From positions 1,054,001 to 1,118,000 of the forward strand of contig NZ_LT629960.1 in the NCBI RefSeq assembly GCF_900104605.1: a DNA stretch of 64,000 bases, in the 5' to 3' direction. A program made the translations under genes and the position numbers. The notes below the pieces were generated by a model. That model ran no database searches, was not told where the DNA came from, and saw nothing but the letters and a program-made list of their open reading frames with translations. Origin of the DNA: Tidjanibacter massiliensis. Its GTDB lineage: Bacteria; Bacteroidota; Bacteroidia; Bacteroidales; Rikenellaceae. Of this stretch, positions 22,211-35,322 are shown piece after piece; position 1 is the stretch's first letter, and the number at the start of each line of letters is the position of its first letter.

Positions 22211-25513
<3,303 letters not shown>

Positions 25514-25555: not shown

Positions 25556-26854
25556 TTATCGGAAACTGAACGCCTTGTCCCGGACTTTTATTATACTTTT
25601 CCCCACCTTGCAGTCGGTGCACCGGCCCCGGGTGCAGTATTCGTTCCTCAACTGCAGCAACGCCTGCGAATCGAGGGCGCTGCGCACCGGCACCCCCATT
25701 CCGCTCCAACTGCGCACGATGGCATTGTTCTCCGCCGGAATATCTCCCAACAGGTCGAAAGCGGCATCTTTCAGCGCTCCTTTCCCGGTAGTCTGTCCGT
25801 AAGCGAACATGACCGGCACGACGGCATTGATTGCGAGCAGGTCGGCCTTCTCCGCCCCGATGCGCCGCGGGCACCGTTCGCCCGAACCGTCGGGCACGTA
25901 ATGCGTGGCCCAATAGCCCGACACCTCGGTATCGAAGAGCGCATGCACATCCTCCCGTGTCCGGCATCCCGCCACCCGGTCGAAGATGAAATCGTTGCGG
26001 GCGACGAACGAGGCGAGCTGCACGATTCTCGTGACGGGCCTGTTCTGCGCCCGGATACCCGCACGCGCCCACTCCCCGGCCCGCATGGGCACGATACCGT
26101 ATTTGCGGGCGAGATAGAGGTAATGGTCATGGAGCCGGGCAATGTAATCGTCGAAATAGCACCCCTCCAACATTCCGGCCGTACCGAGCAGCAGCGCCTC
26201 CACCAGCTCGATATCGCCCCGTTCCCGCAGAACCATCTGATAGGTAGCCCGCGAGGCAAGGTCGATGTAGGATTCGCGATTGCGGTTACCGCCCATGGCC
26301 CGGAAAAGCATGGTGTACAGTGCCTGGGCCCAATCGCCGCCGCACCTCTCCAACACGTTCAGCACGTCCCGACACTTCCGGTCGAGACGCTCCACCACGA
26401 GCCTGTCCAGAAAGGAAATACGTTTGGCAGCGGGCAAATCGCCCAGCCATATCCCGCACTCATACCGACCTGCCCCGGTCCTCAGGGAAGCCACCGCATC
26501 CCGCAACCGCTGCGGAACGGATACGACCAACTGCGGAATGCGTTCACCGCCCGCATCGTACAACGGTGCTGCGGGGGCGGAAACGACATGCAGCACCGCC
26601 CACTGCAAAGCCGCCGGCAACAGACCGTTCCCGTGCTCCCGGCCCTCGACGGAATCTCCGCCGAAAAGGACATCGCCCCGGCGGCGAACACCGTTCACTT
26701 CGATATCCGCTGCACGGTAAATCCCGTACCCGGCATCCTCTTCGCCCGGCTTCACGATTCGCAGGGTGCCGCCGTCGTCCAGCACGAACGTTCCTCCGCC
26801 GGCATCCGCCATATACGGCCACGCGAGCCGCAATATATCGCCATCAGCTCCCAT
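25556..26854 (-). CDS. Divergent DUF2851 family protein
   Basis: About 432 residues. The C-terminal part is typical of DUF2851, a Bacteroidetes/Chlorobi family of unknown function, ending in the four-Cys-like segment EYCTRGRCTDCKVGKS. The middle (FRAMGGNRN around residue 206, then helical repeats) also fits. The N-terminal part is unusual: the family normally shows a GPDF...W.GNVEIH..SDW..H pattern near residues 40-80, and here the aligned stretch (GIYRAADIEVNGVRRRGDV) has lost most of it. I start at 26854 because a -7 element at 26876-26883 would place the transcript start after the ATG at 26887. secA follows by 42 bp. Confidence 0.75.
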   Translation of the reverse strand: MGADGDILRLAWPYMADAGGGTFVLDDGGTLRIVKPGEEDAGYGIYRAADIEVNGVRRRGDVLFGGDSVEGREHGNGLLPAALQWAVLHVVSAPAAPLYDAGGERIPQLVVSVPQRLRDAVASLRTGAGRYECGIWLGDLPAAKRISFLDRLVVERLDRKCRDVLNVLERCGGDWAQALYTMLFRAMGGNRNRESYIDLASRATYQMVLRERGDIELVEALLLGTAGMLEGCYFDDYIARLHDHYLYLARKYGIVPMRAGEWARAGIRAQNRPVTRIVQLASFVARNDFIFDRVAGCRTREDVHALFDTEVSGYWATHYVPDGSGERCPRRIGAEKADLLAINAVVPVMFAYGQTTGKGALKDAAFDLLGDIPAENNAIVRSWSGMGVPVRSALDSQALLQLRNEYCTRGRCTDCKVGKSIIKVRDKAFSFR

Positions 26855-26875
26855 CGAACATAACATATACAGCCC

Positions 26876-26883
26876 CAAATATA
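26876..26883 (-). promoter_or_regulatory. -7 element for the DUF2851-secA unit
   Basis: TATATTTG on the minus strand, a full TAnnTTTG match, without a recognisable -33 element at the usual distance. Confidence 0.45.
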
Positions 26884-26887
26884 ACAC

Positions 26888-27457: not shown

Positions 27458-27787
27458 CTACATGAAACCGAGTTCCAGCTTGGCCTCGTCACTCATCATA
27501 TCCTTGTCCCACGGCGGGTCGAAAACCAGCGCAACGTTCACACGCTCCACACCCGGTATTTTCGCTACCTGCGTCCTGACATCCTCCACGAGCATATCGG
27601 CCATGGGACAGTTGGGAGCCGTCAGCGTCATCTGTATCTCCGCCGTCCCGTCGGGCATATAGTCGATGTTGTACACGAGCCCCAGGTCATAGACATTGAC
27701 CGGAATTTCCGGGTCGTATATATTCTTGAGCGTAGCGATTATGTCCTGCTCCACCCGCAATATGTCGTTCGGTTCCATCTTCTTCAT
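27458..27787 (-). CDS. MIP18/DUF59 family Fe-S assembly protein (SufT-like)
   Basis: A 109-residue MIP18-family protein (DUF59, Fe-S protein maturation). The family motif DPEIPVNVYDLGLVY is at residues 25-39, and the conserved Cys sits in TLTAPNCPM (about residues 54-62). Such proteins help deliver Fe-S clusters to client proteins (SufT, Cia2/MIP18). It is the last gene of a three-gene minus-strand unit, 7 bp after sufE, and sufE supplies sulfur for the same pathway. No other suf genes lie in the window. Confidence 0.9.
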   Translation of the reverse strand: MKKMEPNDILRVEQDIIATLKNIYDPEIPVNVYDLGLVYNIDYMPDGTAEIQMTLTAPNCPMADMLVEDVRTQVAKIPGVERVNVALVFDPPWDKDMMSDEAKLELGFM

Positions 27788-27794
27788 CTCCCTT

Positions 27795-28223
27795 TCACTC
27801 CTTTCCGCCCGCCGCGAATGCCAGGGCGTAGAGCCTCATTTGCTTTATCATCGCCGCCAAGCCGTTGGCCCGCGTAGGCGACAGGTTCTCGCGCAACCCG
27901 ATGCGGTCGATGAAATAGAGGTCCGTATCAAGCACCTGCTGCGGAGTGCGTCCGTTCAGCACGCGAATGAGCAGCGCAATTATCCCTTTGGTGATGATGG
28001 CATCGCTGTCGGCCGAATAGTACACCTTGCCCTCTTCGAGCCGCGCATCCACCCACACGCGCGACTGGCACCCCTCTATCAGGTGCTGTTCGTCCCGGTG
28101 GGCCGGGGCGATGGCGGGCAGTTCGTTGCCCAGCCCTATCAACACTTCGTACCGGTCGAGCCACTCGTCGAACGCCGAGAACTCCTCTATTATCTCCTCC
28201 TGTACCTTGTCCGTACCTGCCAT
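27795..28223 (-). CDS. sufE: SufE family sulfur acceptor
   Basis: A 142-residue SufE protein, which accepts persulfide from the cysteine desulfurase SufS and passes it on for Fe-S cluster assembly. The acceptor Cys52 is in the family motif LIEGCQSRVW. Length and fold pattern (N-terminal helices, then the GCQS loop, then SDAIITKGI) are typical. It lies 11 bp after the phosphatase-fold gene and 7 bp before the SufT-like gene, so all three are probably one transcript. SufS is not in the window. Confidence 0.93.
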   Translation of the reverse strand: MAGTDKVQEEIIEEFSAFDEWLDRYEVLIGLGNELPAIAPAHRDEQHLIEGCQSRVWVDARLEEGKVYYSADSDAIITKGIIALLIRVLNGRTPQQVLDTDLYFIDRIGLRENLSPTRANGLAAMIKQMRLYALAFAAGGKE

Positions 28224-28234
28224 AAGATTTCCGA

Positions 28235-29872
28235 TTATTCCACATATTCCACAATGGGCGCTATCGCTTCGGCGGTAGCCGCCTCCGGTCTCTGTATCCC
28301 CAAAATCCGCGCCAATGTGACGGGAAGCGACGCCATGTCAACCGGCTCCTCGACAACGGCATGCGGAAGCCCGCATCCGGCCATCAGCAGCGGCACGTGT
28401 ATGTCGTAGTCGTAGGCCGAACCGGCCGACGAACGTATCCCCGCCCGCTCCTCTATCCTGCCCGGCACGAGGTCTACGAGCAGGTCGCCCGAACGCTTCG
28501 GGAAATAGCCGTTCCGCAGCCGCTGCATGTATGCATCGCTGGCGGCTCCACCCCGCAAGTCGCAGGCGGGGACAACACGGGAAATGCCCCGGAACTGGAG
28601 CGCGAAATCCGCCGCGCGACGCTGTACCTCGCCGAGCGAAAGGTTGCGGTTGAAAGCTTCGCGACGGTTGATATAGAGCCGCCGGTTCGCATATCCCGCC
28701 ACCCACTCCTCGCCGCCGTACTGGGCACACAGGAAGCTGTTGATGATGGTTCGGAACTGCTCCCCGTTGAAACGCTCCTGCGAAGGCGCGGCGGCATCGA
28801 AAGCCTGGCTGCTGCCGTGGTCGGAGGTCAATACGAAGAGTACCCGCTCCTGGCCGACCTGCGACACGATGAAAGATATCAGGCTGCCGACCGTCCTGTC
28901 GAGCTGATAGAACATATCTTCGGCCTCGACCGATTCGGGGCCGTAATGGGCGATGATGTCGCGCGGCGCATCGAAACAGATGTTCAGGATATCCGGAGCT
29001 TCATCCTGCCCCAGCTCCTCGCGCACGACGGCCTGCATGGCGAAATCGGCCACCAGGTCGCTCGCCAGCGGCGTGGCGAATACCGGAACGTACCGTCCTC
29101 CGCCGGCTGTGCACGGCAGACCGCCGATTGGGGCCAGTTCCCGGAAACGCGCATCCTCCGGCAGGTCGATACGACCGTACCGCCTGTTCACATAGCGTTC
29201 CGGCCCCAGATGCAGCGTCCAGAACCAGTCGGCCAGATAGCTGTTGCCCCTATACTGGTCGTTGAAACGCTCCACCCATCCGGGCAGGTAAAGCATGTAA
29301 CGGCTGGAAGAAGTCCATCCCGCCGTGGCGGTATTCACCCAATAGGCCTCGGTGCCCAGCCCCGCCATGACGATAGCCGAAACGGGGTCGGCCGCAATGC
29401 TGACCACTTTGCTCGCCGGACTCTCGGCCCGCAGCCGGTCGCCCAGCGTGGGGGCAATGAGATTCACGTTGGAATAACATCCCTGCCCGTATTCGCAGTC
29501 GAAACCCGCCGCTTCGGAATCGGCGATAAGTTCCACCTCCTCGCCCGTCAGCACGTCGCACCACCGCTCGCCGACCACCCCGTGTACGGACGGATAGGTG
29601 CCGGTAGTTATCGTGGCAAGCGACGAAGCCCGGTCGGTGGGCATATAATCGTAACGGGCCGAGGTAAAGGAGACCCCGCTTTCGGCCAGACGGCGGAACC
29701 CGCCCTCGGAAAGGTTATGGCCGTAACGGGTGACGAAATCATAGGGCAGCCCCCCGACTACCATATTGACCACCAGTGCCGGCCGCTCCGGCCGCGGAGC
29801 CTGCTGTGCGGCGGCGGTCTGAAAAGCGAATACTCCCCCTACCAGCAAAGGGACCAGTCTGCATACCATCAT
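28235..29872 (-). CDS. Alkaline-phosphatase-superfamily protein lacking the nucleophile (likely pseudoenzyme)
   Basis: A 545-residue exported protein (signal peptide residues 1-22, ending AAAQ) with the fold of PafA-type alkaline phosphatases and nucleotide pyrophosphatases. Three late metal motifs are intact: Asp and His in APRDIIAHYGPES, the DHG of LTSDHGS, and the His of YDYDIHVPLL. However, the first metal-binding Asp (PafA VVDQMRYDYL) is Gly40 in VVGGLPYDF, and the catalytic Thr of PTxTGPGHAS is Arg81 in PTDRASSLAT. The spacing to the flanking YTGT..P.VHG motif is unchanged, so this is substitution, not a gap. Hydrolysis by the usual mechanism is therefore unlikely; a binding or scaffold role is an inference. 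It heads the sufE operon. Confidence 0.85.
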   Translation of the reverse strand: MMVCRLVPLLVGGVFAFQTAAAQQAPRPERPALVVNMVVGGLPYDFVTRYGHNLSEGGFRRLAESGVSFTSARYDYMPTDRASSLATITTGTYPSVHGVVGERWCDVLTGEEVELIADSEAAGFDCEYGQGCYSNVNLIAPTLGDRLRAESPASKVVSIAADPVSAIVMAGLGTEAYWVNTATAGWTSSSRYMLYLPGWVERFNDQYRGNSYLADWFWTLHLGPERYVNRRYGRIDLPEDARFRELAPIGGLPCTAGGGRYVPVFATPLASDLVADFAMQAVVREELGQDEAPDILNICFDAPRDIIAHYGPESVEAEDMFYQLDRTVGSLISFIVSQVGQERVLFVLTSDHGSSQAFDAAAPSQERFNGEQFRTIINSFLCAQYGGEEWVAGYANRRLYINRREAFNRNLSLGEVQRRAADFALQFRGISRVVPACDLRGGAASDAYMQRLRNGYFPKRSGDLLVDLVPGRIEERAGIRSSAGSAYDYDIHVPLLMAGCGLPHAVVEEPVDMASLPVTLARILGIQRPEAATAEAIAPIVEYVE

Positions 29873-29898: not shown

Positions 29899-29906
29899 CA
29901 AAGATA
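29899..29906 (-). promoter_or_regulatory. -7 element for the phosphatase-fold/sufE operon
   Basis: TATCTTTG on the minus strand, 27 bp before the ATG at 29872; no good -33 match. Confidence 0.6.
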
Positions 29907-30020: not shown

Positions 30021-30992
30021 TCAGAGCCCTGCGGTAAAATAGGCGCGCTCCGCACTGAAATCCACCCCCGGAAGCGCCTCCTGAAGCTCATCCACCAGTT
30101 TCAGGGAACACTCCCTGAAGACCTCCACCGCAGCACTGCCCGCATGCAGCACCCGATGGTGCAGCGCGGCATCGAGCTTCCCCAGCCGCGGCAGCAGGGC
30201 ACGCGTATCGGGGTCCATGGCGAACTCGGTGAACTTGCCCCAGATATAGTCCACCGCCTGCGCGGAGGGATGAACCATATCCTCCTCATAGAAGCGGTAA
30301 TCCCGCAGGTCATCATTCATTATCTCGAAGGAGGGGAAATAATAGACGTCGCGAAACCCTTCGGCCAGCGAAGCGGCCGCCGTGCGGAGTATCGCCTTGC
30401 TGAGCGAATTGCCTTCAAGGCCATCCTTCACATGCCGCACGGGACTTACGGTCAGCAGCACCTGCTTTCCGGCCAGGGGCCCGGACAGCAGCTCGCCGTA
30501 CTCCCGCACAATCTCCGCAACAGAGAGCCGTTCGCGGCGGAAACAGCCCGAAGGCTGTTTGTGGCAGTTGGCCGCTATCCGGCCGCTATCGGCCAGACGG
30601 TAGACCCACGCGGTACCGAAAGTCAGGACGACATAATCGGCAGCGGCCAATGCTCCGGCCCCGGCCGTCAGCGACGCATTCATCGCCTCCAACGCCTCCT
30701 TGGCCGACGCACGCGCAAAGGAACCGTGATGGTCGTAGCTGAACCACAATCCGCCTCCACAGGAGAGCTCCCCGACCTCGTAGGGCCTGCCTTCGGCCAG
30801 ACGGCGAATCATGCCGGCGATGGAAGCCGGATTGAAGAGGATGCCGGTCGGATTGGCCGCGACGGAAAACTTCGCCGCCGCCAGCCGCCCGAAGATATGT
30901 TCCGAAAAGCACGACCCCGCAAGGAAGCCGCGGCGCCCATGGTCCACCGTAAACCCCGAACGGCACAACGCTATCTCTGTCCTGAACTTCAT
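30021..30992 (-). CDS. GSCFA domain protein
   Basis: A 323-residue protein of the GSCFA family, named for its N-terminal signature, present here as LAGSCFSEHIF (about residues 25-35). Later conserved segments include LTFGTAWVY (about 122-130), LLTVSPVRH (about 179-187) and the C-terminal DMVHPSAQAVDYIW. The Gly-Ser N-terminal block, the SPVRH block and the final Asp-x-x-His resemble a GDSL/SGNH hydrolase triad, so an esterase-like activity is possible; this is an inference. In Bacteroidetes the family is common but poorly characterised. It is divergent from ispE, with paired -7 elements between the two. Confidence 0.9.
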   Translation of the reverse strand: MKFRTEIALCRSGFTVDHGRRGFLAGSCFSEHIFGRLAAAKFSVAANPTGILFNPASIAGMIRRLAEGRPYEVGELSCGGGLWFSYDHHGSFARASAKEALEAMNASLTAGAGALAAADYVVLTFGTAWVYRLADSGRIAANCHKQPSGCFRRERLSVAEIVREYGELLSGPLAGKQVLLTVSPVRHVKDGLEGNSLSKAILRTAAASLAEGFRDVYYFPSFEIMNDDLRDYRFYEEDMVHPSAQAVDYIWGKFTEFAMDPDTRALLPRLGKLDAALHHRVLHAGSAAVEVFRECSLKLVDELQEALPGVDFSAERAYFTAGL

Positions 30993-32004: not shown

Positions 32005-32048
32005 TGTCCTGTTGAATGATAATTAACCACCCTGAATACGGAAACGAC

Positions 32049-32843
32049 ATGCTTAAACGACTCTTGAGCCTCTGCACGGTAGCCGCCGTCATGCTGTCCT
32101 GCGGCTCGGCGAAAAACATAGCCTATCTCCAGGATGCCGCAGCAGGCGAAATGGAAGAGCTCAATCCCTACACCAATATCATCAAGCCCGGCGACCTGCT
32201 CTCCATCATCGTGTCGTCATCGAAACCGGAACTGGCCGTTCCCTTCAACCTTTACAGCGTCAAAGCGCAGATGTCGGCGGTAACGCCGCAGGCACAGTCG
32301 CGGCAGGAGCTCGAAAGCTACACGGTGAACCCGGAAGGCAACATCGACTTCCCGACGCTCGGTACCCTCCACATAGCCGGCATGACGCGCAACGAGGTGG
32401 CCGACATGATAAAGGGAATGCTCACACAGTATATGCCCGACCCCATCGTGACCATCAACTTCCTCAACTTCAACATCACCGTGATAGGCGAAGTGGAAAA
32501 ACCCGGCAACTTCCGGATTACGGGCGACAGGGTCTCCATCCTCGAAGCGCTGGGCATGGCCGGCGACATGACCGAATTCGGCGACCGGGAAAACGTCGTG
32601 GTGATAAGGGAAACGGACGGCGTACGCGAAATAGGCCGTCTCAACATCAAATCGAAAAAGATATTCGAATCGCCCTATTACTATCTGCAGCAGAACGATG
32701 TGGTCTACGTGGACCCCATCAACGCCAGGGCCCGCGAAACATCGGCTTTCCAGATGAACTTCCCGACCATCGTATCGCTCGGTTCCCTCGCAAGCTCCAT
32801 CGCGATGCTCATCTTCTACATAACCAGCGTAAGCGGCAGATAA
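32049..32843 (+). CDS. Polysaccharide export lipoprotein (Wza-type)
   Basis: A 264-residue outer-membrane polysaccharide export protein. Residues 1-19 form a lipoprotein signal with lipobox VMLSCGS. The poly-export domain (about residues 38-130) is followed by an SLBB domain with VIGEVEKPGNFRITG (about 150-164), and a single transmembrane helix closes the C-terminus (about 240-262), an arrangement typical of Bacteroidetes. The open frame continues 11 codons upstream, but the ATG at 32049 starts the signal. It pairs with the tyrosine kinase 31 bp downstream to move capsule or exopolysaccharide across the envelope. No glycosyltransferase genes are next to them. Confidence 0.9.
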   Translation: MLKRLLSLCTVAAVMLSCGSAKNIAYLQDAAAGEMEELNPYTNIIKPGDLLSIIVSSSKPELAVPFNLYSVKAQMSAVTPQAQSRQELESYTVNPEGNIDFPTLGTLHIAGMTRNEVADMIKGMLTQYMPDPIVTINFLNFNITVIGEVEKPGNFRITGDRVSILEALGMAGDMTEFGDRENVVVIRETDGVREIGRLNIKSKKIFESPYYYLQQNDVVYVDPINARARETSAFQMNFPTIVSLGSLASSIAMLIFYITSVSGR

Positions 32844-32874: not shown

Positions 32875-35322
32875 ATGACCGAGAATAACAAAGACATCAT
32901 CGACGGCAGGAAAGAGGAGGAAAACAAATCCATCACCCTGCGGGATATTTTCGATTTCATCGTATTCAATTGGTATTGGTTCGCCCTCTCGGCAATCGCA
33001 TTCGCGGGCATCGGTATCGTATATGCCCTCTCGCGGCCCGACGTATACCGCTCCTCCGCCATGGTGCTCATCGACGAACAGTACAACCGTTCGTCGAACA
33101 GCGACCTGACAGGATTCATGCCCGGCCGCATGATGTACCGTACCAACAGCGGAGTCGAGGACGAACTGCTCATCATGGGCTCGCGCTCCATCATGGAACG
33201 CGTGGTAGCCGAACTGGACGCCAACATCGTCTACGCCACCAAATCGAAACTCCGGTACAGCTACCTGACTGCCGAAAGTTCTCCTCTGAAACTGACGGCA
33301 GATACCATCCGCTATACCTTCAACATTCATATCAAATCGATAGAAGATGCAGACGGAAGCTTCAAGGCACTCCTCGAATACCGGCTGCCGGGGCAGAAGA
33401 CTACGGAAAAGACCATTACCGGAGCCTTCGGAGAGACAATCCGCGACACGGTCGGAGTCTTCCGGCTCGAACGGGCCGTGGCGACGGCCGGATACAACCC
33501 GAAAGCTGCAAACTCCCTGAGAATTTATGTCCGTCCCGTACGGAACGCCGCCGAAGCATACGCCAAAGCGCTGCACGTAGCGCAGGCCCAGAAATTTTCC
33601 AATATCGTCAATGTCTCCATCTCCGACCATAACCCGCAGAAGGCGGCGGCGCTGACGAACAAGCTCATCGAGGTCTATAACGAAGACGCCATCAACAGCA
33701 AGCGCCGGACGGCCGAAGCGACCATGCGGTTCATCGACGAACGCCTGCAGGCAGTGGAAGGTGAACTCTCCGACGTCGATACGGCCATCGAAAAGTTCAA
33801 AAGCGACAACTCCGCGGTAGACATCATTTCGGAGACGAAACTCTCGCTCGAAACCTCCCGTCAATACGAAGACGACCTGCTCAAGACGGAAATACAGTTG
33901 GAGATGCTCTCCGCCATAGGCGACATCCTCAACGGAAAGGAGGAAATCGGCATCCTGCCGGTCAATATCGGAATAGAGAACCAGGCCCTGTCGAACGCCA
34001 TCAACAAATACAACGAACTGGTACTCGAAAGGATGCGGCTGGGAACGGAGACTTCGGACGACAACCCCGTCATCCGGGAGATGAACGCACAGATAATCTC
34101 CATGCAGCATTCGCTGAAAAAATCCATAGAGAATGTCGCCAACTCCCTCCAGATACAGAACGAGTCACTCCGGCAACAGCTCGCCCAGGTATCCGACAAG
34201 GTCAGCAACATCCCCTATCTGGAACGCGAAACCGTTTCGATAGAACGGAACCAGGAAATCAAGGCAGCCCTCTACACCTACCTCCTCAACAAACGTGAGG
34301 AGACGGCCCTCTCCATGGTGGCCACCACCCCGGTCGCCCAAGTCATCGACAAGGCGCTGGTAAACCCCATCCACGTCGCACCGCACAGGTCCATGATTGT
34401 CCTGCTGTTTTTCGCCATCGGACTCATCCTTCCGGCCATCGTCATCTACCTGATAGAGCAACTGCGGGTGAAGGTCGGAAGCGTCAGCGAAGTGGAAGAC
34501 AACATCCATGTCCCGATAATAGGTGCCATTCCCTCCAAAACCGCCGGCATGCACAACGACAAGATAGTCTCCCCGAACAGCCGGGATGTCGTCACGGAGG
34601 CCTTCCGAATGGTACGTACCAACTTGGACTTCACCATGCCGCAGGGCGGTAAGGTCATCATGGTCACTTCGTCCATGCCGGGCGAGGGGAAGAGTTTCGT
34701 ATCCATCAACCTCTCCCTGACGCTGGGCATCGCCGGAAAACGGGTACTGCTGGTAGACCTCGACCTACGCAAAGCCTCCCTTTCGGAGAAAATCAGCGGA
34801 CGCAGGCAGACCAAGGGATTGGTCAATTATCTGGTGAAAAAGGAGGAGAATCTCGACAACCTCATCAGCCACAACGCCATGCACAACGTCGATGTGCTTT
34901 ATGTCGGCGTCATTCCCCCGAACCCGGCCGAACTGCTCATGGGCGACCGGATAACACAGACTTTCGAGGAGCTGAAACAGATGTACGACTACGTCGTCGT
35001 CGATACTCCGCCTATCGGACTGGTAACCGACACCATGCTCATCAACCGGATAGCCGACCTGACCGTATTCTCGGTACGCGTAGGCAAATCGTTCAAACGC
35101 AACCTGGTGGGTATCAACATACTCAACGACCGCAAGACGCTGCGTAACATGAATGTCATCATCACCGATATCGGTGCAGCCAGACGATACACCCGCGAAA
35201 CCTCCACCTATGGTTACGGCTATGGGTACGGATACGGTTACGGATACGGCAACGAAAAGAAAATGACCCTCAAGACCCGGTTCCGGCTGTTCTGGAAAAA
35301 TCTGAAAAAGAGGAAAGAATAA
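32875..35322 (+). CDS. Polysaccharide co-polymerase with BY-type tyrosine kinase domain (Wzc-like)
   Basis: An 815-residue fused chain-length regulator and tyrosine autokinase. Two inner-membrane helices (about residues 26-49 and 503-523) flank a periplasmic Wzz domain with coiled coils. The cytoplasmic kinase domain has Walker A SSMPGEGKS (about 599-607), Walker A' VLLVDLDLRKA (about 623-633) and Walker B VVVDTPP (about 705-711). The C-terminal tyrosine cluster, autophosphorylated in this family, is seven consecutive Tyr-Gly units at residues 779-792. It controls polymer length and export together with the Wza-type protein 31 bp upstream. The low-molecular-weight phosphatase at 8.2 kb is a candidate counter-acting enzyme. 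Confidence 0.93.
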   Translation: MTENNKDIIDGRKEEENKSITLRDIFDFIVFNWYWFALSAIAFAGIGIVYALSRPDVYRSSAMVLIDEQYNRSSNSDLTGFMPGRMMYRTNSGVEDELLIMGSRSIMERVVAELDANIVYATKSKLRYSYLTAESSPLKLTADTIRYTFNIHIKSIEDADGSFKALLEYRLPGQKTTEKTITGAFGETIRDTVGVFRLERAVATAGYNPKAANSLRIYVRPVRNAAEAYAKALHVAQAQKFSNIVNVSISDHNPQKAAALTNKLIEVYNEDAINSKRRTAEATMRFIDERLQAVEGELSDVDTAIEKFKSDNSAVDIISETKLSLETSRQYEDDLLKTEIQLEMLSAIGDILNGKEEIGILPVNIGIENQALSNAINKYNELVLERMRLGTETSDDNPVIREMNAQIISMQHSLKKSIENVANSLQIQNESLRQQLAQVSDKVSNIPYLERETVSIERNQEIKAALYTYLLNKREETALSMVATTPVAQVIDKALVNPIHVAPHRSMIVLLFFAIGLILPAIVIYLIEQLRVKVGSVSEVEDNIHVPIIGAIPSKTAGMHNDKIVSPNSRDVVTEAFRMVRTNLDFTMPQGGKVIMVTSSMPGEGKSFVSINLSLTLGIAGKRVLLVDLDLRKASLSEKISGRRQTKGLVNYLVKKEENLDNLISHNAMHNVDVLYVGVIPPNPAELLMGDRITQTFEELKQMYDYVVVDTPPIGLVTDTMLINRIADLTVFSVRVGKSFKRNLVGINILNDRKTLRNMNVIITDIGAARRYTRETSTYGYGYGYGYGYGYGNEKKMTLKTRFRLFWKNLKKRKE
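35209..35250 (+). repeat. (Tyr-Gly)x7 coding repeat
   Basis: Seven TAY-GGN units in frame in the kinase tail. All four Gly codons occur and both Tyr codons are used, so the repeat is kept at protein level rather than being fresh DNA slippage. Confidence 0.9.

Follow-up and report, generated by a model that had tools for sequence, protein, structure and literature searches.

A probable pseudoenzyme branch of the PafA alkaline phosphatase family in Bacteroidales

Results

The locus

The window – the whole stretch of 64,000 nucleotides of Tidjanibacter massiliensis DNA that was analysed – carries a gene whose product, hereafter the window protein, is a relative of PafA, the phosphate-insensitive alkaline phosphatase of Bacteroidota (Table 1). 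The original prediction described a full-length frame with a signal peptide, heading an operon with sufE and a SufT-like gene, and the sequence agrees with this: the frame is single and intact, the N-terminus (MMVCRLVPLLVGGVFAFQTAAA followed by QQ) resembles a signal peptide and, as read from sequence, has no lipobox, and the genes share a strand and are separated by short gaps, with a -7 box at a fitting position upstream. The DUF59 gene scores 139.4 bits against TIGR02945, slightly below the cut-off of 143.4 bits. The genome is 2.39 Mb in size and the genus is a member of the Rikenellaceae, within the Bacteroidales; the nearest named relatives are Candidatus Tidjanibacter gallistercoris (79% identity) and Ca. 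T. faecipullorum (64%). The window protein belongs to a group of PafA-family paralogues in Bacteroidales, a branch that we label PAFL.

Table 1. Features of the locus, in positions of the window.
Feature	Position	Strand	Basis or remark
Putative PafA-like pseudophosphatase gene, 545 aa (545 codons)	28235..29872	-	one intact, complete frame; AlphaFold2 model and PafA alignment
Signal-peptide-like N-terminus, residues 1-22	29807..29872	-	read from sequence; model has helix 7-21, then a lower-confidence linker
Gly40 codon (metal ligand D38 in PafA)	29753..29755	-	alignment
Arg81 codon (nucleophile T79 in PafA)	29630..29632	-	alignment
Arg304 codon (metal ligand D305 in PafA)	28961..28963	-	alignment; Arg in 72/83 Rikenellaceae
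Ala308 codon (metal ligand H309 in PafA)	28949..28951	-	alignment; usually Glu in Rikenellaceae
Asp351-His352 codons, positions of PafA D352/H353, sole retained catalytic residues	28817..28822	-	alignment
Ala483 codon (metal ligand H486 in PafA)	28424..28426	-	alignment
GSCFA-domain gene, upstream conserved neighbour	30021..30992	-	PF08885, 281.5 bits
-7 box TATCTTTG, Bacteroidota-type TAnnTTTG, 34 nt upstream of start	29899..29906	-	upstream sequence
SufE, 11 nt downstream of PAFL, same operon	27795..28223	-	PF02657, 157.8 bits
DUF59/SUF-associated (SufT-like) assembly protein, 7 nt after SufE	27458..27787	-	PF01883, 72 bits
DUF2851 protein, with DUF59 and SecA as conserved neighbours	25556..26887	-	PF11013, 229 bits; conserved order
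SecA, downstream end of conserved block	22211..25513	-	conserved cluster; identity by sequence inspection

Fold and family

The window protein matches PF01663 with 79.3 bits (Pfam gathering cut-off, 23 bits), and its best matches among solved structures are to PafA (5too and 5tj3, E ~1e-53). An AlphaFold2 model built from an alignment of 109 family members has a mean pLDDT of 92.4 and a pTM of 0.91; the top Foldseek match of this model is again PafA (5tj3, TM 0.85/0.89), so that the full-length PafA fold is predicted for the window protein. The likeness extends to export and to identical conserved structural residues, at an overall identity of 25-27%. The two nonetheless differ: the window protein has only two of the ten active-site residues, falls on a separate branch and lies in other gene neighbourhoods, and against the PafA equivalog model NF042991 it scores 303.9 bits, less than half the cut-off of 650.

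Other members of the superfamily are more distant. PhoK/SPAP, an active alkaline phosphatase of Sphingomonas (3q3q, 5xwi), has the same fold (TM ~0.78), but is further from the window protein than is PafA (E 5e-24 versus ~1e-53). The ectonucleotide pyrophosphatase/phosphodiesterases (NPP), to which PF01663 also extends, have the core fold in common with it, but TM is just 0.5-0.57 over the query, and the catalytic Thr and two-metal site of that family are not found: the Thr nucleophile is absent, as are most of the metal ligands. A search of PHROGs gave no match, and a plasmid search returned distant PafA-type matches only.

The active site

The active site was read from an alignment of 182 full-length proteins: the window protein, PafA and 180 others of the family, drawn from across the phylum, Rikenellaceae and other Bacteroidales included. 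The PafA numbering was checked: T79, N100, K162 and R164 are as named in the 5too entry, and D38, D305, H309, D352, H353 and H486, the six established metal ligands of PafA, carry the expected letters. All six ligand positions are invariant in the 50 proteins with an intact site.

Across the seven metal and nucleophile positions and three helper positions the window protein reads GRRADHA+EDV, as against DTDHDHH+NKR in PafA. The six metal-ligand positions, in the order given above, are thus G/R/A/D/H/A, and N100, K162 and R164 are replaced by E102, D162 and V164; eight of the ten catalytic residues are lost and two, Asp351 and His352, are kept. The gene, its operon context and the placing of Gly40 and Arg81 at the positions of the first metal Asp and the nucleophile Thr, at unchanged spacing, were all correctly anticipated, the two residues aligning with PafA D38 and T79. 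The accompanying claim that three later metal motifs remain does not hold: the D352-H353 pair alone is kept, and the site is more degraded than had been proposed. Two candidate motifs were considered and rejected. In RDIIAH, a possible D...H metal motif, D and H are each off by one residue; the register is fixed by an ungapped family alignment bridged by intact relatives (SATDYIGHRF in L044), in which Arg304 and Ala308 stand where PafA has D305 and H309. The His of YDIHVPLL, a possible third ligand, is likewise not equivalent, since H486 (TTHS in PafA) sits nine residues upstream, where the window protein has Ala483.

Loss of the site across Rikenellaceae and other Bacteroidales

Family members fall into two sharply separated sets: all ten residues are present in 50 of the 182 proteins and between zero and five in the other 132, with none retaining six to nine. 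All 83 Rikenellaceae proteins have a degenerate site, and PAFL proteins over a large part of Bacteroidales are degenerate too. The first-metal ligands D305, H309 and H486 are retained in one, none and none of them, respectively, and D38 of the second metal in one; the phosphate-positioning residues N100, K162 and R164 are also lost. The other positions are far better preserved (T79 in 58 of the 83, D352 in 72, H353 in 74), and a few proteins (for example L179, L184 and L191) lack even the DH pair.

These figures bear on the order of events. Retention of Asp/Thr by homologues in the same operon had been named as one observation that would refute a pseudoenzyme, and here the two residues part company: the Asp is absent from all but one of the Rikenellaceae proteins, whereas the Thr is widely kept. 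Because T79 persists in most of the family, the change to Arg81 came late, within the lineage of the window itself; indeed, in the six-member clade that holds the window protein the position is occupied by Arg, Arg, Ser, Ser, Ser and Gln. Judged from the alignment, it is the loss of the metal ligands D38, D305, H309 and H486 – an old loss – that defines the branch, and not Arg81.

The emptied pocket of the Rikenellaceae proteins is not in random decay, for new residues are conserved there: Asp301 (92%), Arg304 (87%) and Glu at 308 (73%). The window's own lineage has Ala, Ser or Arg at 308, and PAFL proteins of other Bacteroidales carry wholly different residues at these pocket positions.

PAFL is widespread in the family. 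Full-length frames occur across 22 genera, and matches were found in 110 of 120 Rikenellaceae genomes, including 70 of the 72 that are at least 90% complete; three weak matches among the 110 (G083, G101 and G067) were discounted as PAFL, none of them within the 72. No clear copy was found in G071, a 95% complete genome of the window's own genus, nor in G096, and since PAFL was not found in some genomes of this genus it is not essential everywhere. Four weak matches from g1 genomes (L166-L169) were rejected as PAFL: they are a different PF01663-like lipoprotein with motifs of its own, of alkaline-phosphatase type (TDHVGH, ADHGG). Three of the genomes carrying this lipoprotein have no clear PAFL, and G103 also has a partial PAFL.

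Selection

Comparison of the window gene with its 79%-identical relative gave a dN/dS of 0.149, close to the values for the neighbouring GSCFA (0.163) and DUF2851 (0.161) genes and higher than those for SufE (0.075) and SecA (0.024). Other Rikenellaceae PAFL pairs ranged from 0.026 to 0.234 and active PafA pairs from 0.031 to 0.091, two ranges that overlap; all values are Nei-Gojobori estimates, of which some rest on high and rough dS. The window protein shows several marks of a pseudoenzyme – homology to an enzyme, loss of the catalytic residues and purifying selection – and is predicted to have no catalytic turnover. Low dN/dS together with the newly conserved positions 301, 304 and 308 has the look of a protein whose job has changed rather than of a decaying gene.

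Origin of the branch

Four Bacteroidales genomes (G121, G238, G176 and G198) have an intact PafA at one locus and a degenerate PAFL at another, from which it follows that the two are paralogues. In a tree from which the ten active-site columns had been removed the strict PafA clade received support of 100/100, and two Bacteroidales proteins with all ten active-site residues, L044 (388-2031) and L048 (1501-3144), were placed outside it, on the PAFL side. Residues away from the active site agree: at 14 PAFL-typical columns, which were chosen from the same data and make the comparison a descriptive one, L044 has the PAFL residue at 13 and L048 at 11, against one to five in most PafA proteins. The existence of two intact proteins in the PAFL branch means that its ancestor was probably an active enzyme, and the simplest reading of the sequences would be an active PAFL ancestor followed by more than one loss. 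The best tree and the 14 columns favour this placement, but a tree in which all intact proteins form one clade is also compatible with the data (AU p 0.605 and 0.314 in two analyses), as are one loss and several.

Gene neighbourhoods

Rikenellaceae PAFL genes mostly lie between GSCFA and SufE. SufE and DUF59 follow downstream in 44 of the 48 loci with enough flank (38 of 42 without six double-counted loci), and a TAnnTTTG box precedes PAFL in 29 of 49 Rikenellaceae loci other than that of the window (26 of 43 without doubles). The DUF2851 gene is retained between DUF59 and SecA in most of these loci.

In other families the company is different. The order Lnb>PAFL>SecA occurs at ten loci and Lnb>PAFL alone at two more; a third group has the order YchF-M14-PAFL-PcrB-PPTase-GldD-GldE. 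(Lnb, GldD and DUF2851 were named by Pfam, other neighbours by sequence inspection.) At the two loci checked, L081 (7462-10253) and L112 (6418-9179), the Lnb and PAFL genes share 4 nt and SecA comes next; the arrangement is as if the two genes, the first of which is lipoprotein N-acyltransferase-like, were translationally coupled. None of these PAFL neighbours was found around 17 intact PafA loci with long flanks, save for one YchF 7 kb away. Searches of the window's own genome gave no match for Lnb and none for SprA_N, a link to the T9SS for which the control genomes gave no match either.

Discussion

We predict with high confidence that the window protein is not a phosphatase. The core of the original prediction, a phosphatase-fold pseudoenzyme kept under selection, is strongly supported, given the loss of eight of ten catalytic residues, the degenerate site of every Rikenellaceae homologue and the low dN/dS. 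Arg81 is not the defining loss, and a position beside sufE is no evidence of a common pathway.

What, then, is being preserved? A gene that stays intact under selection while its catalytic residues are lost probably does a job other than phosphate removal. We consider it probable that the window protein is an exported, non-phosphatase paralogue of PafA whose ancestor was an active alkaline phosphatase and whose own use is binding or scaffolding, though we have little confidence in any one role. In such a protein the charged residues of the pocket may stand in electrostatically for the zinc ions and so hold the fold together, the remaining pocket could hold an anionic ligand, or a protein partner, that is not turned over, and the binding or scaffolding would take place at the cell surface or in the periplasm. 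Three points weigh against this reading: a metal site with unusual ligands would be compatible with the sequence, Asp351 and His352 are kept in most members, which goes beyond the needs of pure scaffolding, and PAFL was not found in some genomes of the window's genus. A wider version – that an order-wide branch of PafA, repeatedly and differently degraded, has become a conserved part of the Bacteroidales envelope with no catalytic role, with a salt-bridged pocket replacing the two zinc ions in Rikenellaceae – we put forward tentatively, as an idea that may well prove wrong.

SufE and DUF59/SufT are cytosolic Fe-S proteins and the PAFL protein is apparently exported, which makes a direct partnership doubtful; as the neighbours also differ in other families, sufE adjacency marks the locus and is not evidence for a shared pathway. 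The operon is best read as one of shared transcription. That PAFL lies next to SecA in several families, and near Lnb or GldD/GldE, hints at a role in the cell envelope. A more specific proposal, compatible with the binding or scaffold reading, is that PAFL is specialised for envelope biogenesis and works in connection with secretion or the maturation of lipoproteins. The Lnb-PAFL-SecA loci with their 4-nt overlaps, the SecA gene that closes the Rikenellaceae block and the near-absence of all such neighbours from intact PafA loci speak for it. We nevertheless think it rather unlikely: the window's genome has no match for Lnb, the third group has PcrB, PPTase, GldD and GldE beside PAFL instead, and the Lnb-linked proteins sit on long branches whose placing relative to the Rikenellaceae proteins is uncertain. 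Since the window's genome gave no Lnb match and the neighbourhoods are of a housekeeping kind, we treat the envelope hint as no more than a lead.

Conservation within the pocket admits a further reading, that PAFL is an enzyme with new chemistry, in which Asp301, Arg304, Glu308, Asp351 and His352 form a one-metal or metal-free centre in the old pocket. The set is indeed conserved in Rikenellaceae as an active site would be, but this conservation does not travel. The window's lineage has abandoned Glu308 and varies at the Thr position (Arg, Ser or Gln) with no visible relaxation of selection on the whole gene, and other Bacteroidales PAFL proteins have none of the same residues at those positions; we regard new chemistry as improbable. 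Still less probable is that the protein remains a phosphatase, and so no pseudoenzyme at all, through an active site that has moved or been substituted, using, for instance, another Ser or Thr as nucleophile. Such an enzyme might account for the 58 Rikenellaceae proteins with the nucleophile Thr and for the persistence of D352 and H353 in most, but it would have to work with the first-metal ligands gone in every Rikenellaceae protein save one D305, with N100, K162 and R164 gone too and, in the window protein, with Arg in place of the nucleophile. That the gene is decaying towards loss, with no present function, is very improbable and largely refuted by low dN/dS over deep divergence: the genomes with no clear copy and the few proteins that have lost the DH pair fit it, but full-length frames in 22 genera, a match in nearly every good genome and a conserved position do not.

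PafA is now ranked among the main enzymes by which Bacteroidota release phosphate. Among the papers searched we found no paper on a PafA pseudoenzyme, no published description of the PAFL branch and none naming BT4362-BT4364, presumably the Lnb/SecA locus of B. thetaiotaomicron. A 2022 PNAS survey of PafA discarded every sequence that lacked residues required for activity (PMC8812569), a filter which implies that homologues lacking key residues were seen or expected and would have been set aside without description. In the present data such homologues appear as a coherent, conserved branch that is near-universal in one gut family and, on present sequence evidence, is best regarded as a conserved branch of pseudoenzymes within the PafA family. 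Annotation by homology will probably call its members 'alkaline phosphatase'. The branch also provides a natural series, from the intact L044 and L048 – good active controls – through partly degraded proteins to the window protein, with which one can ask why a phosphatase fold persists after its chemistry is lost and how often the change has occurred.

Elsewhere in the window, a Wza-like gene (32016-32843) lies beside a gene on the plus strand (32875-35322) for what is by inspection a Wzc-like chain-length/BY-kinase protein, with the C-terminal run YGYGYGYGYGYGYG.
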